Part shown: in pieces, positions 11,614 through 55,181 of the stretch
Numbering within the stretch: the first letter of the stretch is position 1
How the letters are laid out: the number at the start of each line of letters is the position of its first letter
From: Gammaproteobacteria bacterium
Lineage (GTDB): Bacteria; Pseudomonadota; Gammaproteobacteria; JAUZRS01
Length of the DNA stretch: 64,000 bases
Direction: 5' to 3'
NCBI GenBank assembly: GCA_030949385.1
Contig: JAUZSP010000007.1
Coordinates: 193,210-257,209 of the forward strand
Made by a program: the position numbers and the translations under genes
Notes under the pieces: generated by a model
What the model was told of the DNA's origin: nothing
The model's input: the letters and a program-made list of their open reading frames with translations, nothing else
Database searches by the model: none

Positions 11614-12159
11614 CTATTTCAACATCACCAAAGCGCGTTTTAACACCGGCAACGCTTTGGGAACTTGAATGTCCATAATGTAATCAGGTACCCATTTATT
11701 GTCTTTTTCACCTAGAATTTTGGCAACATTGTTGCCAAAATTACGCCGCATAACGTAACTCGGACCGTCCTCTTCGCTAAAATCCGACTGAGCATAATCG
11801 GCCATGCGCTCATTTAACAGCGCCACAAAATTGCTGCGGTGATCAATTTCTGGCTCAAAATCAGCGCGGTTTTCCGCATAAAAATCGACCATATACAGCG
11901 CCAAGGCACTAACAAAAATCTGTCGCTCTTCTTCGCTTTTTTTACCGTAAATGCTGCGATCCACCACCTGAATTAAAAAGGCAGAAAATTCCGCCAACAC
12001 ATCCAGACGTTGGCATTGCGTGTCGGTTTGAAAGCCTTCGTTTTCAATTTCCAACAACGCCGTTTGACCAATTTTCCAGATAGCAATGCCAATGGCCGTC
12101 GCCACATGCTCTGTTGAACGATCCCGATCTTTTTGATTCCAGCGAGTTTTAACGCGCAT
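11614..12159 (-). CDS. Conserved-looking hypothetical protein, 181 residues
   Basis: Not recognised. ATG 12159 is chosen over 12204 because AGAGGAGATACATCA precedes it. The protein is soluble and mostly helical, with no signal or membrane segment. Notable stretches are EHVATAIGIAIWKIGQTAL, LAEFSAFLIQVVDRSIYGK, LALYMVDFYAENR and DGPSYVMRRNFGNNVAKILG. The gene is single, convergent with the propeller gene and divergent from the next one. I can offer no function. Confidence 0.7.
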   Translation of the reverse strand: MRVKTRWNQKDRDRSTEHVATAIGIAIWKIGQTALLEIENEGFQTDTQCQRLDVLAEFSAFLIQVVDRSIYGKKSEEERQIFVSALALYMVDFYAENRADFEPEIDHRSNFVALLNERMADYAQSDFSEEDGPSYVMRRNFGNNVAKILGEKDNKWVPDYIMDIQVPKALPVLKRALVMLK

Positions 12160-12272
12160 TGATGTATCTCCTCTAAAAATGATTCGACTGGAACAGTGGA
12201 GCACTCACGCCAGCCCGTGCTAGCATGGCCTCACTGCTTAAACTCATATTCCTAAACTTAGAAAAAGTCCTC

Positions 12273-13843: not shown

Positions 13844-14179
13844 TTAGCTACAGCCTTTAGGGCGAGGCAAACCGGCAATTTTATTTGCCGATTTCACCAA
13901 ACCACCCATTGGGAACAAACCGTAGATGTATTTGCTGGTACTGCGGTCTTTGCCGTATTTTTTCTTCATGACTTTTGCAAAAATACGCGGCTCGGCAACG
14001 GTACTGTTGGTCTCAAAGTAATCACGCGCTTCGTTGACCACCACCCAATGCTCTTCACTCATCTCTACATCTTCAATTTTGGCCACTTCCAGAGCCACTT
14101 CCACTGTCCATTCATCCAGATTTTCCAACCAACCCGCTTCGCTCAACTCAATGGTTTTGCCGTTTGCTTCAATTTGCAT
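13844..14179 (-). CDS. TusE/DsrC-family sulfur relay protein with one conserved cysteine
   Basis: 111 residues from ATG 14179 (GAGGATAAAGTG upstream; the frame extends to 14236 without need). The DsrC fold is evident: MQIEANGKTIELSEAGWL, a central EEHWVVVNEARDYF helix, and the C-terminal arm ANKIAGLPRPKGCS. The penultimate Cys (Cys110 here, CysA) is kept. The second functional Cys of true DsrC, 11 residues earlier, is Asn99. This matches TusE-type family members, which have only the penultimate Cys and take part in sulfur transfer rather than in the DsrAB trisulfide cycle. A terminator separates it from the upstream 67-residue gene, so it probably has its own promoter. Confidence 0.88.
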   Translation of the reverse strand: MQIEANGKTIELSEAGWLENLDEWTVEVALEVAKIEDVEMSEEHWVVVNEARDYFETNSTVAEPRIFAKVMKKKYGKDRSTSKYIYGLFPMGGLVKSANKIAGLPRPKGCS

Positions 14180-14298
14180 CACTTTATCCTCATCAAAATG
14201 CCTGACGGTATCGAAATACCCAACCGTAATGGTCAACTTTATCCTAAAGACAGGATAATGGCCTGAATTTTTTTTTCAATCTTTATTTGAACAACACA

Positions 14299-14355: not shown

Positions 14356-14559
14356 CTAACGTACAGAACCTTTTTCTGCATGAGCAATATCAACCAATTT
14401 CACTGCCATGTCATCGTACTTTTTACGGTAACCGAACAATTTATCATCATCTTCAGGCATGAAGTATTCTTTCATGCCAACACCGTGTTCACGCTCGTAC
14501 GCGGAAAAATCGTTCTGCATTGCGATCATCTCTTTGATCAAATCTGTTTTTTCACTCAT
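14356..14559 (-). CDS. Small orphan protein, 67 residues, in the DsrC-paralogue cluster
   Basis: A soluble, highly charged helical protein, MSEKTDLIKEMIAMQNDF at the start and DIAHAEKGSVR at the end. AAAGG lies before the ATG. I do not recognise a named family, though I believe similar small proteins sit next to dsrC-like genes in other sulfur oxidisers. It is flanked by two DsrC paralogues on the same strand, so a role in the same sulfur-related process is likely but unproven. No cysteine is present. Confidence 0.7.
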   Translation of the reverse strand: MSEKTDLIKEMIAMQNDFSAYEREHGVGMKEYFMPEDDDKLFGYRKKYDDMAVKLVDIAHAEKGSVR

Positions 14560-14643: not shown

Positions 14644-14982
14644 TTAGTAACCGCCTTTACGGCGACTTTCTGGCAGACCAGAGAGACGCCCCCCTTGTTT
14701 GCTGGGATCACCAGGGAAAAGATCGTACAAGGTTTTTGCATTGATCTTTTCGCCCCATTTTTTGCCCATGGTTTTCACCATCGCACGGGTGTTCGGCTGA
14801 TTAGCGCCGTTATTAATGAACTCATCACGAAGATAATTCATCAAATCCCAATGTTTGTCGGTCAATTCCAGTGTTTCAGAAGCTGCCATATGGGTTGCCA
14901 AATCTTCACTCCAATCTTCAATATTTACCAAGTAACCGCTTGCGGTGGTTTCAATGCTAGCACCGTTAAATTCAAGAGCCAT
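14644..14982 (-). CDS. Cysteine-less DsrC-family protein (RspA-type)
   Basis: 112 residues with the DsrC fold pattern: MALEFNGASIETTASGYLVN, the helix KHWDLMNYLRDEFI, AKTLYDLFPGDP, and the arm RLSGLPESRRKGGY. Both functional cysteines are missing: the arm has Gly and Arg where CysB and CysA would be. Members without either Cys have been grouped, as I recall, as RspA (regulatory sulfur-related) proteins. They cannot carry sulfur themselves, so a regulatory or competitive role at DsrC partners is plausible. The gene lies 66 bp after the Cas6-like gene in the same orientation. Confidence 0.87.
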   Translation of the reverse strand: MALEFNGASIETTASGYLVNIEDWSEDLATHMAASETLELTDKHWDLMNYLRDEFINNGANQPNTRAMVKTMGKKWGEKINAKTLYDLFPGDPSKQGGRLSGLPESRRKGGY

Positions 14983-15048: not shown

Positions 15049-15738
15049 TTACTTCATCTGCTGTGTTTTGTTCACCGCCTCAATGCCTTTATGCGGAATA
15101 AATAAACCACAACCAATTTTACGCCCGCCACCCAAACCCATACGCTGCAAACGCACCGACTCTTCTATATCTAAGTCAGCCAGCATCAAACTGCGCGTAA
15201 ATAAAGGCCCTTTCGGGGTTTCAAAACGGTGTGAAAGACCACTCAACATCTTGCGCACCGTAATATCCATTGCGCTCAAACGCGCCACAACGGAGGTTAA
15301 AAACTCATCTTCATCCTGATTTTTATCCACCTCAATGTAGCGGGAAAAAACCGTGGTTAATTTGCTCAATTTTTTACGCGAGGTCTCGCCCAACGTCAAT
15401 TTCCCTAAAGACATATTTAATGTCTGACCCTGCAACTGCTCCGCCTCTGCCAAGCGGTGCTTGGGCAGACGCAAGGTCAAACGCGCACGACGTGACAAGT
15501 GCAACAGATCTTCTGGGTTTTCTGGGCGCTGCCAACCGTTGGCCGAATTTGCCACATGAATCAGGTGAATACCCGCCTCTGGTTCGTCTTCCAACCAAGG
15601 CAAAACCTCGCACAAGGATTGAGACAATACATAAGCGTGATCCACGGGAATCGAAGAGCCAATCAGTTTAAAAGAGAGGTCCATGACCTCATCAGTAAGC
15701 TCATATTCCTGCTCTTCTGGGCTCTCTTGCCAATACAT
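15049..15738 (-). CDS. Solitary Cas6/Cmx6-like RNA endonuclease
   Basis: 229 residues resembling the I-MYXAN type Cas6 (Cmx6). Key family features are VMDLSFKLIGSSIPVDHAYVLS at 19-39, written in parts: DLSFKLIG then PVDHAYVLS, with His34 as candidate catalytic residue; SRRARLTLRLP near 83-93; and the C-terminal glycine-rich loop RLQRMGLGGGRKIGCGLFIP near 196-216. Cas6 proteins are ferredoxin-fold ribonucleases that cut CRISPR repeat hairpins. No other cas gene and no repeat-spacer array exists in this window, and the gene sits between DsrC-family and orphan genes. It may have been recruited to process another RNA. AGAGGC precedes the ATG. Confidence 0.82.
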   Translation of the reverse strand: MYWQESPEEQEYELTDEVMDLSFKLIGSSIPVDHAYVLSQSLCEVLPWLEDEPEAGIHLIHVANSANGWQRPENPEDLLHLSRRARLTLRLPKHRLAEAEQLQGQTLNMSLGKLTLGETSRKKLSKLTTVFSRYIEVDKNQDEDEFLTSVVARLSAMDITVRKMLSGLSHRFETPKGPLFTRSLMLADLDIEESVRLQRMGLGGGRKIGCGLFIPHKGIEAVNKTQQMK

Positions 15739-15747
15739 ACGCTGCCT

Positions 15748-15939
15748 CTAAACCTTGTTCGCAACGGTAAACGCTGCCTCAAGTCGATTTTCCCAATCAG
15801 CTGGGGTGTCACTGAAAGGCGGTTTCACATCCATACTGAAGTGAATCTCGCCTTTAGCACGCTGTTTAATCAGCTGCTCCAGATCTTCAAACCCTTCCAA
15901 AGCAAATTCTTGAATCAATACTTCACTCAAACACAACAT
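15748..15939 (-). CDS. Small orphan protein, 63 residues, upstream of the Cas6-like gene
   Basis: An acidic, helical protein (EVLIQEFALEGFEDLEQLI, then PPFSDTPADWENRLEAAFTV). Not recognised. Only 9 bp separate its stop from the Cas6-like start, and 21 bp separate it from the dioxygenase gene, so all three should be cotranscribed. GAGAGTG lies upstream of the ATG. It could be a protein partner of the Cas6-like enzyme, which is inference from position. Confidence 0.65.
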   Translation of the reverse strand: MLCLSEVLIQEFALEGFEDLEQLIKQRAKGEIHFSMDVKPPFSDTPADWENRLEAAFTVANKV

Positions 15940-15960: not shown

Positions 15961-16902
15961 TCATACCGCACTCATTTCAATAGCACGATCGTAATAACGC
16001 GCCCGATAGAGCAGCCGTTGTTGCTGCTCAGAGTTCTGAAACGAGGATCGACCATGCAAGACGTTATTGCAGATAATCCCTTGCCCTGCTTGCAAACGAA
16101 AACGCAGCAGAGCGTCGTTCTGTTCAGACATCAAGCGCCGTAAAGCCGCTTCTGCAGCCTGAGTTAGTGCATCGTGCGCCCAAATCACATGGCGCAGACG
16201 TGCGCTGTAACGCATGTGCAGATGACCGCTGGCCAAGATCGAAAAGACCGGCCCACTCTGCTCTGCCCGCAGGCAAACGCCCTTTTGCACATTCTCCGGA
16301 ATGGTCATCGCATCCGGTCGCATCAAAGCCTCAATGTACGCGGGGTTCAAGTCTCGTAACTGCAAATAAAGCAGCTCGTGATCCATTAAAAAATTTTCAC
16401 CACCCTCCGCTGCCGGTTGCACACAGTGCATCACAATGGCACGAATCTGCCGTGACACCGGGTTGTAATAGCCGTCCGTATGCCAATTCAAGCCTTTATT
16501 ACTGTAGGGGATGTACTCACCCTGAACCGCACCAGGTTTGCGCACCTGCAACGCCGTGATCGCATCGTTGTCCGCACAGAGATTGCCATCCAGACGCTCC
16601 AAACCCAGCGACAATCCCAACTGACGCACAAAGGCTTTATCACCCACCACACCGTCAGGTAACTGATAGAGCACCGCATTATTCTGCTGCAAACAGATCT
16701 TTAAACATTCTATCTCTGCTTCACTCGGCTTAAGCTGAGCAAAACAGACCAACAGTTCCTTCACCGAGTTCGCTCGACTCGACAACTTCTCTTCGCGCCA
16801 GGATTGATAAGCCAGATTATCACCCAGATTAAAAGGCGAGACCATCAATCTGCACCCAACCTCATTATTAAGGTTACAAACGGCTTGCTGCATAACCCGC
16901 AA
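15961..16902 (-). CDS. TauD/TfdA-like Fe(II) 2-oxoglutarate-dependent dioxygenase
   Basis: 313 residues. The HxD iron ligands are in LNWHTDGYYNP (about 178-188), the distal His in CNNVLHGRSSF (about 277-287) and the 2-oxoglutarate Arg in RLLYRARYYDR near 297-306. GGENFLMDHELLYL is a typical TauD-like core segment. The substrate is not evident; relatives act on taurine, betaines and other small organic acids. The start is uncertain: Met codons at positions 1, 4 and 20 are all possible. It is the first gene of the minus-strand cluster that diverges from dsrA, so its promoter lies in the same 492-bp gap. Confidence 0.82.
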   Translation of the reverse strand: MRVMQQAVCNLNNEVGCRLMVSPFNLGDNLAYQSWREEKLSSRANSVKELLVCFAQLKPSEAEIECLKICLQQNNAVLYQLPDGVVGDKAFVRQLGLSLGLERLDGNLCADNDAITALQVRKPGAVQGEYIPYSNKGLNWHTDGYYNPVSRQIRAIVMHCVQPAAEGGENFLMDHELLYLQLRDLNPAYIEALMRPDAMTIPENVQKGVCLRAEQSGPVFSILASGHLHMRYSARLRHVIWAHDALTQAAEAALRRLMSEQNDALLRFRLQAGQGIICNNVLHGRSSFQNSEQQQRLLYRARYYDRAIEMSAV

Positions 16903-17394
16903 CCACTCTCAACTTTGATGGCCAGTATTCTATTACAGCTTCTACACATTGTGACTACCCACAAGGCAAGAGACGCACAATGAAACTGAACAAACGCCAG
17001 ACCAAGAATAAAAAGGTATAAAAAAGCAGAAAAACCACCACTCTAAATTCATAAAAAAAACACAACCACCTGTTTTTAAACAAAAAAATAAAGACAGCTG
17101 CGCAAACATAAAAACACCCCCTCCTGCCCAAAACCACATCTAAAGCAGGTCTCTATATAAAAAACTTATGCCGACATATCCCCTTAGGGATAAATATCCC
17201 TCCTCATGCCACCCCATCGTGAAGGTAGCCGACACGCGCTCAGGAACCTAGACTTATCCCACCTGCTATCGGACAGCCCTGTGTGTGCTCGGTAACAGTA
17301 CAAAATAACGTTTTATTTTAAATAGCCAGGACACAGCTCGCGGGCTTTGACCGCGTCCACCAATCCTGAATCCTTAAGTTAAGGGAGATTTAGT
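16903..17394. promoter_or_regulatory. Divergent control region between the TauD-like gene and dsrA
   Basis: A 492-bp non-coding gap that must hold the dsr promoter. The clearest element is TATCCCCTTAGGGATA at 17177-17192, a near-perfect palindrome, with a further ATATCCC copy at 17194-17200. Read as two heptamers, TATCCCC-TT-AGGGATA, it has the 7-2-7 spacing of NarL/NarP-type sites, but differs from their consensus at the third base. A second palindrome, CCTTAA-G-TTAAGG (17372-17384), overlaps the dsrA ribosome binding site AAGGGAG (17381-17387). The rest is A-rich; I cannot fix -35/-10 boxes with confidence. Confidence 0.55.
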
Positions 17395-18651
17395 ATGGCT
17401 ACAAATCAGCATGACACCCCAATGCTCGACGAGTTGGAAAATGGCCCATGGCCCAGTTTCATCACCGGAATTAAACGTCTGCGTGACGAACATCCCGATG
17501 AGCGCATCAACGCCGTAACCAACGATCTGTTGGGGCAACTGGAACACTCTTACGAAACTCGTAAAGGGTATTGGAAAGGCGGCACCATGAGTGTCTTCGG
17601 TTACGGCGCAGGTATCATCCCTCGCTTTTCCGAAGTTGAAAAAGCCTTCCCTGCTTCTAAAGAGTTCCACACTCTGCGCATTCAGCCTCCACCCGGAAAC
17701 CACTACAGCACCGACATGCTGCGCCAACTGGCTAACAGTTGGGAAAAAAGCGGTTCTGGCTTGGTGACCTTCCACGGTCAAACCGGCAACATCATGTTTA
17801 TTGGTGCCAGCAGCGCCAGTACTCAAGTCTTCTTCGACGAAATCAACGACTACGGTTGGGATCTCGGCGGTGCAGGCCCTGACGTGCGTACCGGCATGTC
17901 GTGTGTTGGTGCAGCACGTTGTGAGCAGTCTTGCGTTGATGAGCAAAAAGTTCATCGCCTACTGCAAAACAACTTCACCGATGACGTTCATCGTCCCGCT
18001 CTGCCTTACAAGTTCAAGTTCAAAATTTCCGGTTGTCCTAATGACTGCCAGAACTCCATTGAGCGTTCTGATTTCTCCGTCATTGGTACTTGGCGTGATG
18101 AGATGAAAGTGGATCAGGAAGCCTTCAAAGGCTACATGAGCACCAAAGGTCGTGAGTACATCATCGACAACGTCATCAGCCGTTGCCCTACCGATGCACT
18201 GGCACTGAACGACGACGACACCCTCAACGTCAACAACCGCGATTGTGTTCGCTGCATGCATTGCTTGAATGTTATGCCTAAAGCCCTCTCTCCTGGAGAT
18301 GACAAAGGCGTGATCATCAGCATGGGCGGCAAACGTACCCTGAAAATCGGTGATTTGATGGGCACGGTCATCATCCCGTTCAAAAAACTGGAAACCGAAG
18401 ACGACTATGAAACATTAGTTGAGTTGGCTGAAGAGGTCATCGACTTCTGGGCTGAGAACGGTCTTGAGCACGAACGTTGTGGTGAAATGATCGAGCGTAT
18501 CGGTCTGGCCAACTTCCTTGAAGGCATCGATGTTGATGTTGATCCGAATATGATCAACAGCCCACGCCAAAGCTCCTACGTTCGTATGGACGATTGGGAC
18601 GAACAAGCCGAGAAGTGGTTCGTACGTCAAGCGGAAAAAGAAGCCAGCTAA
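17395..18651 (+). CDS. dsrA: DsrA, reverse dissimilatory sulfite reductase alpha subunit
   Basis: 418 residues, normal for DsrA. With DsrB it forms the cytoplasmic alpha2beta2 enzyme that here oxidises sulfane sulfur delivered by DsrC toward sulfite. The sirohaem-[4Fe-4S] ligands are visible as Cys170 and Cys176 (CVGAARC) and Cys214 and Cys218 (GCPNDC). A ferredoxin insert carries CPTDA and CVRCMHCLNVMP around 264-298. AAGGGAG lies 8 bp before the ATG. The operon gene content (dsrEFH, dsrL) shows the oxidative direction. A 9-bp hairpin follows the gene before dsrB. Confidence 0.98.
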   Translation: MATNQHDTPMLDELENGPWPSFITGIKRLRDEHPDERINAVTNDLLGQLEHSYETRKGYWKGGTMSVFGYGAGIIPRFSEVEKAFPASKEFHTLRIQPPPGNHYSTDMLRQLANSWEKSGSGLVTFHGQTGNIMFIGASSASTQVFFDEINDYGWDLGGAGPDVRTGMSCVGAARCEQSCVDEQKVHRLLQNNFTDDVHRPALPYKFKFKISGCPNDCQNSIERSDFSVIGTWRDEMKVDQEAFKGYMSTKGREYIIDNVISRCPTDALALNDDDTLNVNNRDCVRCMHCLNVMPKALSPGDDKGVIISMGGKRTLKIGDLMGTVIIPFKKLETEDDYETLVELAEEVIDFWAENGLEHERCGEMIERIGLANFLEGIDVDVDPNMINSPRQSSYVRMDDWDEQAEKWFVRQAEKEAS

Positions 18652-18666
18652 ACGCAGGCTCAGAAC

Positions 18667-18689
18667 GAGAAGGTGGATCACACCTTCTC
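18667..18689 (+). other. Stem-loop between dsrA and dsrB
   Basis: GAGAAGGTG-GATCA-CACCTTCTC, a perfect 9-bp stem with 5-nt loop, lies in the 85-bp gap. The next bases are CTCTCCG, and a T-rich stretch starts only after TTTATTCGG, so it is not a typical terminator. It could protect the dsrA 3' end or be a processing site. Confidence 0.55.
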
Positions 18690-18736
18690 CTCTCCGTTTA
18701 TTCGGTTTTTAACCCCCACATATTTCAGGAGTTATC

Positions 18737-19813
18737 ATGGCTAAAGCAACACCTCGCTCTCCTATCGAGTCCGGTTGTCCGGACGCATTCCAGTATATGC
18801 ATCCCATGATGCGTAAACACTACGGTAACTGGGCATACCACGAAGATCCACAGCCTGGCGTGCTACTGCACGTTGCGCACGGTGGTGACAAAATTTGGAC
18901 CATCAAAGTCGGCACCCAACGTATTCTGGATGTCTTCACCATTCGCAAATTATGCGACATCGGTGATGAATTCGCTGAAGGTCACATTCGTTTCACCCTG
19001 CGTTCCAACTTGGAATACATGGTCACCGACGAAGCCAAAGTCCAACCTCTGATCGAAGCCATCGAAGCCGAAGGTTTTGTGGTCGGTGGAACACGTAACT
19101 CCGTGACCACTCTGTCTCACACCCAAGGTTGGTTGCATTGTGATATTCCTGCCACCGATGCTTCTGGTGTTGTGAAATCCATGATGGATGAGCTGATTGG
19201 TGAGTTTAAAGCGTGGAATATGCCTAACCGCGTACACATGACCACCTCTTGCTGCCAAATCAACTGCGGTGGTCAAGGCGACATCGCGATCAACGTTCAG
19301 CACACCAAGCCACCGAAGATTAACCATAATCTGGTTGCCAACGTTTGTGAACGTCCTTCGGTTGTTGCTCGTTGCCCTGTGGCTGCTATTCGTCCTGCAA
19401 TGGTCAATGGTAAGCCGTCTTTGGAAGTCGATGAGAAGAAATGCATCTGTTGTGGTGCCTGTTTCCCACCTTGTCCTCCGATGCAGATCAATGATCCAGA
19501 GCACAGTAAACTGGCTATCTGGGTGGGTGGTAATCACTCCAACGCACGTGGCAAACCGACCTTCCAAAAATTGGTTGCTGCCGGTATCCCCAACAACCCC
19601 CCTCGCTGGCCTGAAGCAACGGCCATCGTGAAGAAAATCCTCAGTGTCTACAAAGAAGACGCCAAAGATTGGGAGCGCATCAACGAGTGGGTTGAACGCA
19701 TTGGCTGGCCTCGTTTCTTCGAAAAAACCGGTCTGCCCTTCACGAAATACCACATCGATAACTGGCGTGGTTCGCGTGCGAGCTTAAACTCCTCTGCACA
19801 CATTCGTTTCTAA
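18737..19813 (+). CDS. dsrB: DsrB, reverse dissimilatory sulfite reductase beta subunit
   Basis: 358 residues. It shares the sulfite reductase fold with DsrA and binds the catalytically active sirohaem. Cysteine ligands are seen in TTSCCQINCGG (Cys172, Cys173, Cys177) and CERPSVVARC (Cys204, Cys213). A ferredoxin domain follows with CICCGACFPPCPP (about 236-248). AGGAG lies before the ATG. Partner of DsrA in the alpha2beta2 core; the DsrC C-terminal arm inserts between the subunits. Confidence 0.98.
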   Translation: MAKATPRSPIESGCPDAFQYMHPMMRKHYGNWAYHEDPQPGVLLHVAHGGDKIWTIKVGTQRILDVFTIRKLCDIGDEFAEGHIRFTLRSNLEYMVTDEAKVQPLIEAIEAEGFVVGGTRNSVTTLSHTQGWLHCDIPATDASGVVKSMMDELIGEFKAWNMPNRVHMTTSCCQINCGGQGDIAINVQHTKPPKINHNLVANVCERPSVVARCPVAAIRPAMVNGKPSLEVDEKKCICCGACFPPCPPMQINDPEHSKLAIWVGGNHSNARGKPTFQKLVAAGIPNNPPRWPEATAIVKKILSVYKEDAKDWERINEWVERIGWPRFFEKTGLPFTKYHIDNWRGSRASLNSSAHIRF

Positions 19814-19827
19814 GACAGGGTTTATCG

Positions 19828-20220
19828 ATGAAATTCGGAATCATGATCAACGAAGGGCCTTACAACCATCAAGCGGCTGACAGCGCGTATCAATTCGCCA
19901 AAGCCGCTCTGGAAAAAGGCCATGAAATCTTTCGTGTTTTTTTCTACCACGATGGTGTCAACAACGCGACTCGTCTGGCGGTTCCACCGCAAGACGACCG
20001 TAACGTGACCAAAATGTGGCAGGAGTTGGCGGAAGCGCACAAGCTTGATCTCGTCGTCTGTATTGCTGCGGCTCAACGCCGTGGCATCCTCGATGCAGAT
20101 GAAGCAAAACGTCAAGGCAAAGATGCCGATAACATCGCCTCCGGTTTTCGTATCTCCGGTCTGGGTCAGCTGATTGAAGCAGGCATTCAGGCGGATCGTT
20201 TACTGGTCTTTGGTGATTAA
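19828..20220 (+). CDS. dsrE: DsrE, sulfurtransferase subunit of DsrEFH
   Basis: 130 residues of the DsrE/TusD fold. Cys78 (LDLVVCIAAAQRRG) is at the same position as the essential persulfide-carrying Cys78 of Allochromatium DsrE. DsrEFH is a cytoplasmic hexamer that hands sulfane sulfur to DsrC. The gene lies 14 bp after dsrB and 11 bp before dsrF. The presence of dsrEFH marks the sulfur-oxidising version of the pathway. Confidence 0.97.
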   Translation: MKFGIMINEGPYNHQAADSAYQFAKAALEKGHEIFRVFFYHDGVNNATRLAVPPQDDRNVTKMWQELAEAHKLDLVVCIAAAQRRGILDADEAKRQGKDADNIASGFRISGLGQLIEAGIQADRLLVFGD

Positions 20221-20231
20221 AGGAGCCTCTT

Positions 20232-20639
20232 ATGTCTACGATTAAAAAGTTTTTCTACGTTAACAGAAAAGCGCCTTACGGCACTGTTTACGCTCTGGAA
20301 TCATTGGAGGTGGTACTGATTGGTGCCGCTTTCGAACAAGACGTCACCTTGGCGTTTATCGACGACGGCGTATATCAGTTGATGAAAAACCAGAGCACCG
20401 CAGGAATTGGCATGAAAAACTTCTCGCCAACCTACAAAGCGCTCGGTGATTACGACGTCACCAAACTGTACGTCGAAAAAGAGTCTCTGGAAGCGCGAGG
20501 CCTGACCATTGATGATCTGATGGATCTAAAATGGGAAGATGAAGATGACGACTGGGCAGAAAGAGATTCTATCCGCCTGGTCACCTCCGCCGAACTTGCT
20601 GACATCATGTCTGAGCAAGACGTGGTCTTGAGCTTCTAA
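20232..20639 (+). CDS. dsrF: DsrF, structural subunit of DsrEFH
   Basis: 135 residues of the DsrF/TusC fold, beginning MSTIKKFFYVNRKAPYGTVY. The protein contains no cysteine at all, in keeping with a structural rather than sulfur-carrying role. An acidic segment (WEDEDDDWAE) lies near 101-110. AGGAG is 7 bp upstream of the ATG. It assembles with DsrE and DsrH. Confidence 0.96.
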   Translation: MSTIKKFFYVNRKAPYGTVYALESLEVVLIGAAFEQDVTLAFIDDGVYQLMKNQSTAGIGMKNFSPTYKALGDYDVTKLYVEKESLEARGLTIDDLMDLKWEDEDDDWAERDSIRLVTSAELADIMSEQDVVLSF

Positions 20640-20652
20640 GGGGTATTGAAAA

Positions 20653-20961
20653 ATGGCGATGTTACACACCGTTAATAAATCCTCTTTTGATCGCAACACC
20701 TTTGAAAGTTGCTTGCGCTTGGCAAAAGAGGGTTCTTCCGTACTTCTCATCGAAGACGGCGTTTATGCAGCAATGAAAAACACCACCGCTGCCGAAAAAA
20801 TCAACAGTGCAATGGGCACGCTGACTTTTTATGTTCTCGGTCCAGACATGGACGCTCGTGGAATAAAAGCAGACGCACTCATCGACGGCTTTAAGGTTGT
20901 GGACTACAACGGCTTTGTGGATCTTTCCATCGAGCACGACAGCGTACAATCTTGGCTTTAA
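20653..20961 (+). CDS. dsrH: DsrH, subunit of DsrEFH
   Basis: 102 residues of the DsrH/TusB fold. Cys20 (FESCLRLAKEG) matches the conserved Cys20 of the characterised DsrH. It ends DSVQSWL. The gene begins 13 bp after dsrF, with GGGG upstream of the ATG. Third subunit of the relay that feeds DsrC. Confidence 0.96.
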   Translation: MAMLHTVNKSSFDRNTFESCLRLAKEGSSVLLIEDGVYAAMKNTTAAEKINSAMGTLTFYVLGPDMDARGIKADALIDGFKVVDYNGFVDLSIEHDSVQSWL

Positions 20962-21010
20962 ATTTAACCCAATTTGAGATTACCTCGGTAGTCTCTAGGA
21001 GAATAAACAC

Positions 21011-21343
21011 ATGGCTATTGAACTGAATGGCAAGACTTACGACACCGACGAAGAAGGCTACTTAGCGGATCTGTCCCAGTGGGACGAAGATATCGCAGCT
21101 GAAATGGCTCGTCTGGATGACGCAGAACTGACCTCCGCTCACTGGGAAGTGATGAACTTTCTGCGCGAATACTACGAAGAGTACCAAATTGCTCCCGCAG
21201 TTCGCGTTTTGACCAAAGCGATTGGCAAAAAACTGGGCAAAGACAAAGGCAACAGCAAGTACCTGTACGAGTTGTTTCCTTACGGTCCTGCTAAGCAAGC
21301 CTGTAAATATTCTGGCCTGCCTAAGCCTACCGGTTGCGTGTAA
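21011..21343 (+). CDS. dsrC: DsrC, canonical two-cysteine sulfur carrier
   Basis: 110 residues. The flexible C-terminal arm reads ACKYSGLPKPTGCV and carries both functional cysteines, Cys98 and the penultimate Cys109, spaced by ten residues. DsrC takes sulfur from DsrEFH, presents it to DsrAB and, in disulfide or trisulfide form, exchanges electrons with DsrMKJOP. TAGGAG precedes the ATG. It is the only one of three DsrC-family proteins in the window with both cysteines. A strong hairpin follows the gene. Confidence 0.98.
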   Translation: MAIELNGKTYDTDEEGYLADLSQWDEDIAAEMARLDDAELTSAHWEVMNFLREYYEEYQIAPAVRVLTKAIGKKLGKDKGNSKYLYELFPYGPAKQACKYSGLPKPTGCV

Positions 21344-21357
21344 CACTGCGCTGCCTA

Positions 21358-21379
21358 AGTGGGGGACTCTTCCCCCACT
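21358..21379 (+). terminator. Terminator-like hairpin after dsrC
   Basis: AGTGGGGGA-CTCT-TCCCCCACT, a perfect 9-bp stem with a tetraloop, is followed by GTTTTCATTA. Since dsrM to dsrR continue downstream, it probably acts as a partial terminator or 3' stabiliser that raises dsrC (and upstream) transcript levels over the membrane genes. Confidence 0.6.
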
Positions 21380-21427
21380 GTTTTCATTACTGTCTTTAAA
21401 ATTTTACACCTGAGGAGTTTCAGGAGC

Positions 21428-22168
21428 ATGCTTCTGTCTGTCTTGTTCACAATTTTGTTCTACGCCGCAGCCCTTATTTTCTTTGTCGGTGTGGGTAACA
21501 AGATCTATCAATATGCCTCCACTCCTGCTCCATTAAAAATTCCGACCACACCGGCTCCGGTGACTCGTGGTGGTGTGGTCTTGCGCATGTTGCGCGAAGT
21601 GACGCTGTTTGAGAGCCTGTTTAAAGCCAATAAATGGATCTGGCTGTTTGGCTGGTTGTTCCATGTGGCACTGGCGCTGATCGTCATTCGCCATCTGCGT
21701 TATTTTACCGACCCTGTTTGGCCTCTGGTTGAGATGCTGCAACCGTTCGGTAAATACGCCGCCTTTGCCATGTTGGCCGGTTTAGCCGGTCTCTGGGCCC
21801 GTCGCTTCTTGGTTGACCGGGTGCGTTACATCTCAGCCCCTTCCGATCACCTGATGCTGGCGCTGCTGATCGGCATCGGCATCAGCGGCGTGATGATGAA
21901 ATTTGTCTCACACACCGACATCGTGGCGGTCAAAGTGTTCTTTATGGGCTTGATGTCCTTTGACTTCAGCCACCCGCTGCCCGCTGACGTGCCTTTGATC
22001 GTGCATTTGTCACTGGTGGCACTGCTGGCGATCATCTTCCCCTTTAGCAAGTTGCTGCACGCCCCCGGCGTGTTCTTTAGCCCCAGCCGCAACCAGGTGG
22101 ACAATCCACGTGAAAAACGCCATCTGGCGCCTTGGGCAGCCGAACTTGAAGCCGGTGAAAAGCGCTAA
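21428..22168 (+). CDS. dsrM: DsrM, haem b membrane subunit of DsrMKJOP
   Basis: 246 residues from ATG 21428, preceded by CAGGAGC; the frame is open from 21359 but that region is the dsrC hairpin. It has about five membrane helices and resembles the NarI gamma subunit. Candidate haem-ligand histidines lie in LFHVALALIVIRHLR (about 77-91) and later helices. DsrM passes electrons between DsrK and the quinone pool. It is followed 43 bp later by dsrK. Confidence 0.94.
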   Translation: MLLSVLFTILFYAAALIFFVGVGNKIYQYASTPAPLKIPTTPAPVTRGGVVLRMLREVTLFESLFKANKWIWLFGWLFHVALALIVIRHLRYFTDPVWPLVEMLQPFGKYAAFAMLAGLAGLWARRFLVDRVRYISAPSDHLMLALLIGIGISGVMMKFVSHTDIVAVKVFFMGLMSFDFSHPLPADVPLIVHLSLVALLAIIFPFSKLLHAPGVFFSPSRNQVDNPREKRHLAPWAAELEAGEKR

Positions 22169-22211
22169 GCGCCTTCACCGCAGAGCCTCAATAAACGACT
22201 AGGAGCAGCAC

Positions 22212-23750
22212 GTGGCCAATTTTGAAACACCTGAATTTAGAGAATACCCCATCATTCCCAAGCTGCAAGAGGGAACGATGGCGCACAGCAAACCCTTTAT
22301 CTCACGCGTGCCTTTTCAGGAGCCTTTGGGTTTTCCTGACGAATTAGTGGACAACTGGCAAGAGAAAGCCATCGCAAAAATCGGTGAGCTAAAAGGCAAA
22401 TACCGTGGTTTACAGGTCTACCTTGACTCCTGCGTCAAGTGTGGCGCGTGTACCGATAAGTGCCACTACTACCTTGGCACCAACGATCCGAAAAACATGC
22501 CGGTGGCACGTCAGGATCTGTTCCGCAGTGTCTATCGTCGTTATTACACCGTGGCTGGCAAATATTTCCCCAAACTGGTGGGCGCGAAAGATCTGACCAA
22601 AGAGGTGCTGGACGACTGGTACAGCTACTTCCACCAGTGCTCACAGTGTCGCCGCTGTTCGGTGTTTTGCCCCTACGGCATTGATACCGCCGAAATCTCC
22701 ATGGCGGCGCGTGACGTAATGAACCACATCGGTGTCGGGCAAAAATACTGCAACGAGATCATTGCCAAGGTTTATAAGATTGGCAACAACCTCGGTCTGC
22801 CCGAACCCGCTCTGCTGGATACGTTGGAAGGTCTGGAAGAAGACATCGAAGACGAAACCGGCGTAGCAGTCAAACTGCCACTGGATCAAAAAGGCGCAGA
22901 CGTGCTGCTGGTCACCCCTTCCGCTGATTTTTTTGCCGAACCTCATGTTGATGGTTTAATGGGCTACGCCAAAGTGTTCCACGAAGCGGGCATCAGCTGG
23001 ACCCTCAGCTCCTACGCCTCAGAAGGTGCCAACTTCGGCATGTTCATCGGCAACTACGACAACATGCGCAAAATTTCACTGCGCATTCGTAAAGCAGCCC
23101 AAGATCTGGGCGTGAAACGCATCGTCTTTGGCGAGTGCGGCCATGCGTGGCGCGTCGGTTACAGCTTCCTCAACACCTTGGCAGGACCGTTTGATTTCTT
23201 GGATCAACGTTACCCTGTACCACAGCACATTCTTGAAGTGACCCACGGGCTGCTGCAAGAGGGCAAGCTGCGCATGAATCCGGCGGTCAACGATCACATG
23301 ACCTTGACCTTCCATGATTCCTGCAACGTGGCACGCGCCAGTCGCATGGGCGACAAACCCGGCGGCCAATTCACCTTCCCACGGGATGTGATCAAAGCCG
23401 CCTGCAATAACTATTACGACATGGATCCCACCACCACCCATCAGAACACCTTCTGTTGTGGCGGTGGCGGCGGTCTGTTAACCGATGATCTGCTTGAGCT
23501 GCGGGTTAAAGGTGCTCTCCCACGAATGGAAGCTTTGAAAGAAGTAACCGAGGAGAAAAAAGTAACTCACATGGCGGCTATTTGCGCCATCTGTAAAAGC
23601 CAGTTCAGCAAAATGCTGCCCTACTACGGCTTCGAGATGGATCAAATTGTCAGTGTTCACCAACTGGTGAGCTCTGCGCTGGTGATGAAAGGCAGTGAAC
23701 AAGAAGCAGAACTCGACGCAATTGAAACAGATAACGGTGAAGCCGCCTAA
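22212..23750 (+). CDS. dsrK: DsrK, HdrD-like iron-sulfur subunit of DsrMKJOP
   Basis: 512 residues, GTG start at 22212 with AGGAGC 6 bp upstream. Two [4Fe-4S] motifs are seen, CVKCGACTDKC (about 74-84) and CSQCRRCSVFC (about 139-149). Two HdrD-type CCG domains follow, including GECGHAW and CCGGGG, which bind the special catalytic cluster. DsrK faces the cytoplasm and is thought to act on DsrC, reducing or oxidising its cysteines, with electrons to DsrM. Length and motifs are normal. Confidence 0.97.
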   Translation: MANFETPEFREYPIIPKLQEGTMAHSKPFISRVPFQEPLGFPDELVDNWQEKAIAKIGELKGKYRGLQVYLDSCVKCGACTDKCHYYLGTNDPKNMPVARQDLFRSVYRRYYTVAGKYFPKLVGAKDLTKEVLDDWYSYFHQCSQCRRCSVFCPYGIDTAEISMAARDVMNHIGVGQKYCNEIIAKVYKIGNNLGLPEPALLDTLEGLEEDIEDETGVAVKLPLDQKGADVLLVTPSADFFAEPHVDGLMGYAKVFHEAGISWTLSSYASEGANFGMFIGNYDNMRKISLRIRKAAQDLGVKRIVFGECGHAWRVGYSFLNTLAGPFDFLDQRYPVPQHILEVTHGLLQEGKLRMNPAVNDHMTLTFHDSCNVARASRMGDKPGGQFTFPRDVIKAACNNYYDMDPTTTHQNTFCCGGGGGLLTDDLLELRVKGALPRMEALKEVTEEKKVTHMAAICAICKSQFSKMLPYYGFEMDQIVSVHQLVSSALVMKGSEQEAELDAIETDNGEAA

Positions 23751-23816
23751 ACGGCGCTTCACTTGTACCTTATTTACACAATTTAAAGATTAAACAGACC
23801 TCACAGGAGGACGGGC

Positions 23817-25772
23817 ATGGCCACTTCTAAAGACGATATGAACCAAAAACTGACTTTTCGACGTTTTGAGGACGGTGATAGTGAATACCGCTCCGCAGGC
23901 GACATAATTTTAAACGAGGACACATCGTACAAATGCCCGACTTACGTGCATCGTACGCCTCCTTGCCAAGGCAGCTGCCCCTCTGGTGAGGACATTCGTG
24001 GCTGGTTGGACATCGTTCGTGGTATCGAACTGCCTCCCGAAGGCATGGAAATGTCGGAATACGCTTTCCGTCGTTCCACCGACGCCAACCCCTTCCCCGC
24101 CATGATGGGTCGTGTTTGCCCAGCACCGTGTGAAGACGGCTGTAACCGCAACAACGTCGAAGAGTTTGTCGGCATCAACTCCGTTGAGCATTTCATCGGT
24201 GATGAAGCGTTCAAAAACGGCTACACCTTTGACGTACCCGCCTTCAACGGCACTCGCATCGCCATCATCGGTGGCGGCCCTGCGGGCATGGCTGCCGCTT
24301 ACCAACTGCGTCGCAAAGGCTACGGCAGTGTGATTTTTGATGATCATGAGCAACTTGGCGGCATGATGCGTTACGGCATCCCAGGATACCGTACCCCTCG
24401 TGAAGTACTTGATCACGAGTGCAAACGTATTTTAAACATGGGCGAAATCGAATTCCGCGCCAACACCCGCGTCGGTCGTGACGTGGCCGTGGCTGACTTG
24501 GAAAAAGAATACGCTTCTGTTTTATGGGCCTTGGGTTGTAAATCCGGTCGTGGCTTGTTTGTGGACGGCTGGGAAGGCACTCCTAACTGCGTCTCCGGCG
24601 TGGCGTTCTTAGAAGCGTTTAACACCGGCAAGCTGCACGTTGCAGCGGACAAAGTGGTCTGCGTTGGTGGTGGTGATACCTCCATTGATGTGGTCTCTGT
24701 GGCACGTCGTCTGGGTAAAATCACCAACTTGCCTGAACATGAAAAACCCGAGCATGTGATCGGCGGTTACGTCGCCCACGATTCAGCCTACGCTGCGGCT
24801 CGTGAAGGCGCACAGGTCACATTGACCTCCTTGTTCCCGAAAGAGAACATGACCGCTGCCGAACACGAAGTCACCGACGCACTGACCGAAGGGGTTACCA
24901 TCCTTGAAGGTGTGATGCCCATTGCGTTGGTTAAAAACGCCGAAGGTCGTGCCACCGCTCTGCGCGTTGCCAAATGCACCGTGGACAGCGCCGGTCGTCC
25001 GACCCCAGTTGAAGGTTCTGAATACGACATCGAAGCCGATCTGATCGTCTCCGCCATCGGCCAAGGCGGTGATCTCACCGACCTGGAAGAGATGAACAAC
25101 GGTCGCGGTCTGATTGACGCCGACAAATTTTACCAAGTACCTGGTAAAGCCGGTCACTTCGTCTGTGGTGACATCGTCCGTCCTCATCTGTTGACCACCG
25201 CCATCGGCCAAGCGTCCATCGCCGTTGACAGCATCATTCACTACCTCAATCAAGAAGAGCAGAGCAAACGTCCAAAAGTGGATGTGCATCACTTCAACCT
25301 GCTCAGCAAATTGCAAGAGACCGATTTAGCACCAGAATCCTTTGACGACAGTGACGGTGATCTGCGTGGTACCGATGATGCAAAATTTGCCATCCACAAC
25401 TACGAAGATCGCTCCAATCAAGAGATCATCTCTTCTGACAAACTCTTCTTGGGTCATTTTGGTCACACGCCTCGCATCCATCGTGATGAAGTGGTTCCCA
25501 GCTCTGAAGAAGTTTTGGGTCACTTTGAAGAACGACTGATTGCCCTCAGCGACGATCAGGCGGTTGAAGAAGCCAAACGCTGCATGAGCTGCGGTATGTG
25601 TTTTGAGTGTGATAACTGCGTCATTTTCTGCCCTCAAGATGCCATCTTCCGCGTCAAGAAATCCGAAAAAACCACCGGCCGTTATGTGGACACCGACTAC
25701 TCTCGTTGTGTTGGTTGCCACATCTGTTCCGATGTCTGCCCCACCGGCTACATCGACATGGCTTTGGGTTAA
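23817..25772 (+). CDS. dsrL: DsrL, NAD(P)H-linked iron-sulfur flavoprotein
   Basis: 651 residues. It begins with a cysteine-rich segment (CQGSCPSGEDIRGWL and VCPAPCEDGCNR) as in glutamate synthase small subunits. Next come an FAD-binding motif, IAIIGGGPAGMAAAY (about 149-163), and an NAD(P)H-binding motif, VVCVGGGDTSIDVV (about 281-294). The C-terminal ferredoxin domain has CMSCGMCFECDNC and CVGCHICSDVCP (about 592-645). DsrL couples DsrAB to NAD(P)H and is essential for sulfur oxidation in Allochromatium. AGGAGGACGGGC gives a very strong ribosome binding site. Its presence between dsrK and dsrJ is typical of oxidisers. Confidence 0.97.
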   Translation: MATSKDDMNQKLTFRRFEDGDSEYRSAGDIILNEDTSYKCPTYVHRTPPCQGSCPSGEDIRGWLDIVRGIELPPEGMEMSEYAFRRSTDANPFPAMMGRVCPAPCEDGCNRNNVEEFVGINSVEHFIGDEAFKNGYTFDVPAFNGTRIAIIGGGPAGMAAAYQLRRKGYGSVIFDDHEQLGGMMRYGIPGYRTPREVLDHECKRILNMGEIEFRANTRVGRDVAVADLEKEYASVLWALGCKSGRGLFVDGWEGTPNCVSGVAFLEAFNTGKLHVAADKVVCVGGGDTSIDVVSVARRLGKITNLPEHEKPEHVIGGYVAHDSAYAAAREGAQVTLTSLFPKENMTAAEHEVTDALTEGVTILEGVMPIALVKNAEGRATALRVAKCTVDSAGRPTPVEGSEYDIEADLIVSAIGQGGDLTDLEEMNNGRGLIDADKFYQVPGKAGHFVCGDIVRPHLLTTAIGQASIAVDSIIHYLNQEEQSKRPKVDVHHFNLLSKLQETDLAPESFDDSDGDLRGTDDAKFAIHNYEDRSNQEIISSDKLFLGHFGHTPRIHRDEVVPSSEEVLGHFEERLIALSDDQAVEEAKRCMSCGMCFECDNCVIFCPQDAIFRVKKSEKTTGRYVDTDYSRCVGCHICSDVCPTGYIDMALG

Positions 25773-54944: not shown

Positions 54945-54984
54945 AATAACCTCGGGACACCAGCCGTGCCGTAAATGAATGAAG

Positions 54985-55110
54985 TCTGAGCAGAGGCCGG
55001 TCTCCGGACTTGGGTGAAGACCCTTTACCGTTGCGGTGGCAGTGTTAGAGTCGCACTAAGCTTCCCGATTATCCCAACGCCACTGCGTCAGGCACCTCTT
55101 ACCAGCAGAG
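54985..55110 (-). promoter_or_regulatory. Cobalamin (B12) riboswitch upstream of cbtBA
   Basis: Read on the minus strand the region shows the hallmark blocks of cobalamin riboswitches: GAGGTGCCTGACGCAGTGGC, then GGGATAATCGGGAAGC, GTGCGACTCTAACACTGCC, CCGCAACGGTAA and CCGGAGACCGGCC. It ends about 40 bp before the cbtB start. It should repress cbtB, cbtA, the chelatase and cobO when cobalamin is plentiful. Confidence 0.93.
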
Positions 55111-55181
55111 TATGATACCGAAATTTGCTTGAGGTGGCATAATAAATGTGGAGCAGGTTAGGAGAGGCATCATTTTACCTC

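Follow-up and report, generated by a model that had tools for sequence, protein, structure and literature searches.

A Cas6-family protein conserved with the dsr genes, and not with CRISPR, in Gammaproteobacteria

We analyzed a 64,000-nucleotide stretch of a gammaproteobacterial genome (hereafter the window), in which a gene for a stand-alone Cas6-family protein lies divergent from an oxidative-type dsr operon (Table 1). The open reading frame begins with ATG and coincides exactly with the interval that a first-pass annotation, made from the sequence alone, had ascribed to a Cas6-like protein of 229 residues, and to this account the minus strand is now added. The family assignment was likewise borne out, as the product scored 132.1 bits against TIGR02807 (cas6_cmx6, curated cut-off 98.85) and 203.8 bits against PF09559 (curated cut-off 26.7), and also matched six PADLOC Cas6 models, which together place its resemblance to Cas6 far above chance. 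Moreover, the motifs quoted earlier as marks of this family (PVDHAYVLS, LRLP, and a C-terminal GLGGGRKIGCGLFIP loop) are all present. The gene differs from that of its nearest relative by a dN of 0.017 and a dS of 0.130, which indicates purifying selection. A search of genome contigs returned one very close relative, a plasmid search with the protein gave zero matches, and a scan of viral contigs revealed no relative. Elsewhere in the window, we noticed a cobalamin riboswitch (RF00174, 73.2 bits) at 54978-55114 on the minus strand.

Table 1. Genes and sequence features around the Cas6-family gene, with positions numbered from the first nucleotide of the window.
Feature	Position	Strand	Basis or remark
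u196, conserved neighbor without a database model	11614..12204	-	locus comparison
Second DsrC-family paralog, accessory neighbor, ends in KGCS, adjoins the Cys-less one	13844..14236	-	TIGR03342, 100.5 bits
s67, 67 aa, MSEKxxLIKEMLEMQKKF...	14356..14559	-	downstream of the DsrC paralog; conserved operon member
Cys-less DsrC paralog, C-terminus RKGGY instead of cysteine	14644..14982	-	TIGR03342, 97.1 bits
Stand-alone Cas6/Cmx6-family protein, 229 aa	15049..15738	-	TIGR02807, PF09559, AlphaFold/Foldseek, 94-ortholog alignment
s63, 63 aa, MLxLSEiL...DVKPPF.DTP..WEDRLE.AF	15748..15939	-	between the TauD-like gene and Cas6; 9 nt separate its end from the start of Cas6
TauD/GBBH-like Fe(II)/2-oxoglutarate dioxygenase	15961..16902	-	PF02668, 70.9 bits; HxD motif (HTD)
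Divergent intergenic region, TauD operon/dsrA	16903..17394	.	palindrome TATCCC-N4-GGGATA 17177-17192; ACCCCAT 17211-17217
CCTAGACTT, likely -10 box upstream of dsrA	17247-17255	.	motif enrichment
dsrA, divergent from the Cas6 operon	17395..18651	+	TIGR02064, 622 bits
dsrA-dsrB gap with strong hairpin GAGAAGGTG-gatca-CACCTTCTC	18652..18736	+	weak candidate substrate
dsrB, dsrE, dsrF, dsrH, dsrC, dsrM, dsrK, dsrL (oxidative-type dsr operon)	18737..25772	+	ORFs, synteny

Read in the orientation of Cas6, the conserved operon consists of genes for a TauD-like dioxygenase, s63, a TPR-like protein (41 loci), Cas6, the Cys-less DsrC paralog, and s67. A TauD-like gene was seen at 75 loci and, in 74 of them, precedes Cas6 on its strand. 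The same holds for the TPR-like gene in 41 of 41 loci and, without exception, for s63, which is present at 84 of 97 loci. Downstream on that strand are the DsrC paralog (76 loci) and s67 (48 of 48 occurrences). The additional neighbor u196 directly follows Cas6 at one locus (L038) and stands between Cas6 and TauD at two others (L196 and L197). The first-pass annotation was right in setting a Cys-less DsrC paralog beside Cas6, but its view of the neighborhood overlooked both s63 and s67. No Pfam or NCBIfam model was found for either of these two small proteins, and for s63 there was also no sequence match and no fold match in the PDB. The TauD-like protein weakly matches TmpA (PDB ID: 6npb). 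Among the DsrC paralogs, 64 of 76 lack cysteine altogether and six have one within the last 12 residues; in contrast, the DsrC proteins of the dsr operons carry a terminal cysteine in 70 of 72 cases. Cys-less DsrC paralogs go by the name RspA, and the neighbor in the window, being of the DsrC family and free of cysteine, is presumably one of them. No description of an RspA-like DsrC paired with Cas6 was found in the literature.

To the sequence scores can be added the predicted structure. An AlphaFold model built from 69 orthologs (mean pLDDT 88.5, pTM 0.84) contains two RRM-like domains with the Cas6 fold, and when this predicted model was compared with the PDB by Foldseek, the top match was Cas6 8fcj_B (E 3.7e-15), with TM scores of 0.76-0.81 for 8fcj and 8fcu, and the remaining matches at E <= 5.4e-4 were all Cas6-family structures or Cascade entries. 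In sequence, too, the closest solved structure is 8fcj (E 4.5e-14), the Cas6 of a type I-B CAST. Family scores and fold matches together establish that the product of the window gene is a true member of the Cas6 (Cmx6) family. The CAST enzyme, which is 25-26% identical, serves a transposon-encoded Cascade, however, and has an asparagine where the window protein has His34. The stand-alone Cas6 of Pyrococcus furiosus (PDB IDs: 3i4h and 3pkm) belongs to the same fold family at 12-14% identity by fold alignment and, according to PMC3150331, can work as a free enzyme. Unlike what we propose for the window protein, it serves CRISPR repeats.

How the gene is distributed was followed in 56 relatives from different families, in 369 Gammaproteobacteria genomes, and in a second, phylum-wide sample, with Cas6 called by PF09559 and dsrA by TIGR02064 at E below 1e-30. 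Seventeen of the 56 relatives carry a Cas6 ortholog, one each, and s63 is present in 14 of these 17 versus none of the 39 Cas6-negative relatives. Across the 369 genomes, PF09559 was found in 117 and dsrA in 118, with both in 110, Cas6 only in seven, dsrA only in eight, and neither in 244 (phi 0.91, Fisher p 1.5e-74); p-values here overstate independence since the genomes are related to one another, a reservation that leaves the divergent placement unaffected. In genomes with Cas6 and dsrA on a shared contig, 81 of 83 pairs lie within 4.6 kb, at distances of 0.66 to 4.5 kb, and every one of these 81 close pairs is divergent. For six of the seven Cas6-only genomes, the Cas6 contig stops at or just past the side expected to hold dsrA, and the contig edge of the Cas6-only genome G317 still shows where dsrA begins. 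As for the eight dsrA-only genomes, in which no Cas6 copy was detected, five are assemblies below 90% completeness. The phylum-wide sample added only two further PF09559 genomes (G569 and G596), both with Cas6 beside dsrA and with a rearranged gene order (dsrA< Cas6> u196> TauD>). Among 47 dsrA genomes of other classes, an impure test of oxidative Dsr because some may hold the reductive type, none has a PF09559 Cas6, which argues that Dsr does not in general need Cas6. Orthologs found only next to CRISPR loci had been named beforehand as a refuting result, and this was not what we saw, since the orthologs lie beside dsr and not beside CRISPR.

Cas6 is a CRISPR RNA-cutting enzyme that acts on repeat hairpins. 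The first-pass annotation had reported a setting free of CRISPR, and indeed no array was found in the 64-kb window, but as a picture of the whole genome this fails, for three CRISPR loci (type I-E, cas1-RT, and type III-B) lie outside the window. The type I-E locus is complete; it counts 52 repeats and encodes a Cas6e (PF08798) of its own. The cas1-RT locus (L041, 11265-16134) holds two cas2 genes, cas1, a separate reverse transcriptase, and 12 repeats, and is adjoined by a PF10040 Cas6. The Cmr (III-B) locus has nine repeats and a cas1 broken into two frames (L045, 10129-10655). Since the repeats of the cas1-RT and Cmr loci are alike, both ending in ATTAAGAC, the PF10040 Cas6 could well act on both arrays, and with this enzyme and Cas6e at hand the host arrays do not need the window Cas6. 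A second PF09559 gene was not found anywhere in the host genome, nor was an I-MYXAN cas operon, whose presence had been named beforehand as evidence against a non-CRISPR role; the Cas6 proteins that do stand at the arrays are other ones. Moreover, neither the window gene nor any of 97 Cas6 loci has Cas8/Cmx1 or Cmx8, DevR/Cas7, DevS/Cas5, or Cas3 beside Cas6, and in place of these I-MYXAN genes the 97 loci hold dsr, TauD, s63, and DsrC genes. No CRISPR array was found near Cas6 at 98 loci. Apparent arrays near two orthologs (L181 and L182) proved to be a 24-nt satellite in one case and a 120-nt coding repeat in the other, and were set aside.

Nor do the carriers as a group show a tie to CRISPR, as Cas1 occurs in 50 of 117 genomes with Cas6 versus 86 of 252 without (p = 0.13, no association). 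Of the carriers, 67 lack Cas1; a weak Cas3-HD match was seen in six of these and type III RAMPs in two, which leaves 59 in which no Cas1, Cas3-HD, or RAMP match was found at all. Seven of the 59 are genomes on a single contig with a completeness of 99-100% (G020, G045, G080, G082, G109, G132, and G310). Such figures bear on the view that the window Cas6 is a relic, or a CRISPR enzyme acting in trans on type III or type I arrays elsewhere in the genome. The host does have three CRISPR loci, the part of its Cmr locus that was read shows no dedicated Cas6, and type III systems often rely on a Cas6 supplied in trans, as PMC12669027 describes. Nevertheless, an enzyme is already on hand for each kind of array (the PF10040 Cas6 adjoins an array with a Cmr-like repeat, and the type I-E operon includes Cas6e), Cas1 and Cas6 are not associated over the 369 genomes, 59 carriers yielded none of the three CRISPR markers, and the gene is fixed beside dsrA. 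Because of how Cas1, Cas3-HD, and RAMPs are distributed, and because other Cas6 proteins stand at the arrays, we discarded a CRISPR role in trans and consider it highly improbable. Conservation of this Cas6 tracks dsr, not CRISPR, and its role is almost certainly a non-CRISPR, dsr-linked one.

In the alignment of 94 orthologs, W3, H34, G68, W69, R84, R90, Q198, and G211 are invariant, and H58 is kept in 97%. His34, a residue singled out in the first-pass annotation, directly follows beta-1 in the AlphaFold model with its Cas6 fold, and it is also present in both members with a rearranged gene order. The Cas6 catalytic histidine is placed just after the first beta strand in PMC3150331, the same source including a reviewer exchange in which this histidine is said to be not universal and perhaps structural in some families. 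Judged by alignment, His34 is the retained histidine of the catalytic position, and it is kept as well in the CRISPR-linked relatives, that of CAST excepted. Besides the histidine, dsr-linked and CRISPR-linked Cas6 have in common R90, R133, and a G-rich loop, which in the window protein is near the C-terminus. Outside this shared set are the dsr-specific residues W69, E143, K163, G167, K217, and the N-terminal W3.

These features set the protein apart from its closest named family. While the window Cas6 is homologous over its full length to I-MYXAN Cas6/Cmx6 (TIGR02807 and PF09559), with the histidine after beta-1 and the G-rich loop both kept, it has no cas operon or array and falls on a separate branch. 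Relative to the I-MYXAN proteins, the dsr-linked ones add W3, a GW insert, K163/G167, and a PHK tail, and they lack a loop that precedes strand 177-187 in CRISPR-linked Cas6. In the tree, the 94 dsr-linked proteins split from nine comparison proteins with a branch support of 100/99, eight of the nine being CRISPR-linked and the ninth, from Gloeobacter, not. As a separate observation, the PF09559 members on cyanobacterial plasmids reside in I-MYXAN cas operons, with the exception of this one, which is encoded on a Gloeobacter morelensis plasmid (NZ_CP063846.1; L192, 3471-4262), not beside cas3 or cas8 and near a cupin gene and a gene of the PAPS-reductase family. It is possibly a second non-CRISPR use of Cas6.

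Given its fold and this one histidine, the dsr-linked Cas6 likely cleaves RNA. Members of the wider RAMP superfamily such as Cas5 and Cas7 bind RNA without cutting it, and the protein might correspondingly be a dead or non-cutting regulator that binds a leader or hairpin and controls translation or stability. The conservation of dsr-specific W3, W69, E143, K163, and G167, all outside the shared Cas6 set, would suit such a regulator, yet the histidine at the catalytic position is invariant in 94 of 94 orthologs and in the two rearranged-order members as well, and we judge the loss of cutting unlikely. Less likely again is a role that does not involve RNA, for example one in which the fold is a protein-binding scaffold that helps Dsr proteins to assemble or stay stable. 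None of the operon partners is a known RNA protein, and s63 has no known fold, both of which would fit this; however, the retention of R90, R133, the histidine, and the G-rich loop in common with CRISPR-linked Cas6 speaks against it, and we regard it as improbable.

For RNA targets, the dsr region itself was searched. Upstream of dsrA, 82 regions were compared and motif enrichment was measured against shuffled sequences, which brought out the palindrome TATCCC-N4-GGGATA, ACCCCAT, and CCTAGACTT. The spacing from ACCCCAT to TAGACTT is 38 nt and fixed in most loci holding both, on account of which we read these motifs as DNA operators and a promoter, not as RNA; together they are probably an unreported dsr operator/promoter. 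A shared RNA element in the dsrA leader was accordingly rejected, since the motifs resemble DNA sites, and the leaders themselves fold differently genome by genome. Hairpins downstream of the DsrC paralog (mean z -2.0) look like the same palindromic operator and were set aside. Palindromes of the TATCCC-N4-GGGATA kind are seen ahead of s67, too, in several loci.

The gap between dsrA and dsrB offers a weak candidate. Its hairpin stems differ between the window and the nearest relative (L025) with the pairing preserved, and the hairpins of carriers in general are unlike in sequence and strong in about half (mean z -2.1, 35 of 71 below -2). In Cas6-less dsr genomes of other classes they are less frequent (mean z -0.5, three of 20 below -2; p = 0.009), a comparison that is confounded with lineage. 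Moreover, these hairpins are missing from genomes of 1.0-1.1 Mb that keep Cas6 and present in some genomes without Cas6. We therefore rejected the dsrA-dsrB hairpin as a general substrate, the streamlined genomes alone being enough to show that it cannot be the general target. Over the dsr intergenic regions, no RNA element or hairpin common to all carriers was found. The core of the idea put forward at the outset, a non-CRISPR Cas6 acting in a dsr context, is strongly upheld by co-occurrence, divergent adjacency, independence from Cas1, and persistence in genomes where cas genes were not detected; RNA cleavage, a hairpin as the target, and dsr mRNA as its source are proposals.

An RNA from outside the dsr transcripts could then be considered. 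The ancestry of DsrC, DsrEFH, and TusE/TusBCD is shared with that of tRNA thiolation, and on this ground a Cas6-like enzyme beside a DsrC paralog could act on a modified tRNA or other small RNA. Under such an explanation, Cas6 would still be an RNA-processing enzyme of the Dsr context, only with a target other than dsr mRNA. It is in keeping with the adjoining DsrC paralog, which falls in the TusE/DsrC family, with the modification of tRNA by TusBCD-TusE (PMC3397948), and with the want of a conserved hairpin in the dsr operon. On the other hand, there is no direct tie between the protein and tRNA, and the conserved divergent position relative to dsrA favors a cis-linked role, so that we hold a tRNA or small-RNA target to be rather unlikely.

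A dsr-region transcript is instead the most economical target, because the divergent place beside dsrA has been kept despite reordered neighbors, and we find it fairly probable that the target is indeed RNA of the dsr region. As Cas6 neighbors dsr with or without CRISPR, it is probably a borrowed RNA enzyme now serving sulfur metabolism. On balance, the window protein appears to be a domesticated stand-alone Cas6 that has become a fixed accessory of oxidative Dsr, with dsr-region RNA as its likeliest target. In mechanistic terms, it would bind and probably cut a specific RNA, most likely the dsr polycistron or the transcript of its own operon, and the expression or stoichiometry of Dsr proteins would in this manner be set post-transcriptionally. 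It may do so together with the co-encoded Cys-less DsrC paralog, the dioxygenase, and s63. For such post-transcriptional control there is some room, seeing that in A. vinosum on sulfide the transcripts of dsrEFH and dsrC exceed that of dsrA (PMC3397948, citing Grimm 2010). More tentatively, Cas6 could have been domesticated a single time in this gammaproteobacterial lineage, as a dedicated endoribonuclease of lithotrophic sulfur oxidation, which is encoded in the six-part operon divergent from dsrA and would set Dsr protein levels through the cutting of specific RNAs.

What we observe, across the lineage in Gammaproteobacteria, is a Cas6 that is linked to dsr and free of CRISPR. No description of a dsr-linked, CRISPR-free Cas6 was found in a search of full-text literature, which leaves prior mention in subscription papers possible, as these were outside its scope; the sections consulted of reviews on Cas exaptation do not mention it, and Cas6 is likewise absent from a 2024 paper tracing how Dsr-mediated sulfur oxidation evolved. 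A precedent is solo-Cas4, a Cas-family nuclease whose gene reportedly often lies away from CRISPR loci, although it is of a different family (a DNA nuclease) from Cas6, and we know of no fixed link between it and a metabolic operon. Public annotation by family model would label the present gene 'CRISPR-associated protein', thereby hiding a conserved dsr gene, and two small protein families without a database model, s63 and s67, can now be named as companions of Cas6. If both the single domestication and the RNA-cutting reading are true, this would be the first fixed CRISPR-free function of Cas6 in core metabolism. If the protein is an RNA enzyme, then CRISPR RNA-processing enzymes can become fixed in central energy metabolism with no guide RNA, and the Cas6 operon would offer a route into the post-transcriptional control of Dsr in sulfur-oxidizing Gammaproteobacteria, including the streamlined ones of 1 Mb.
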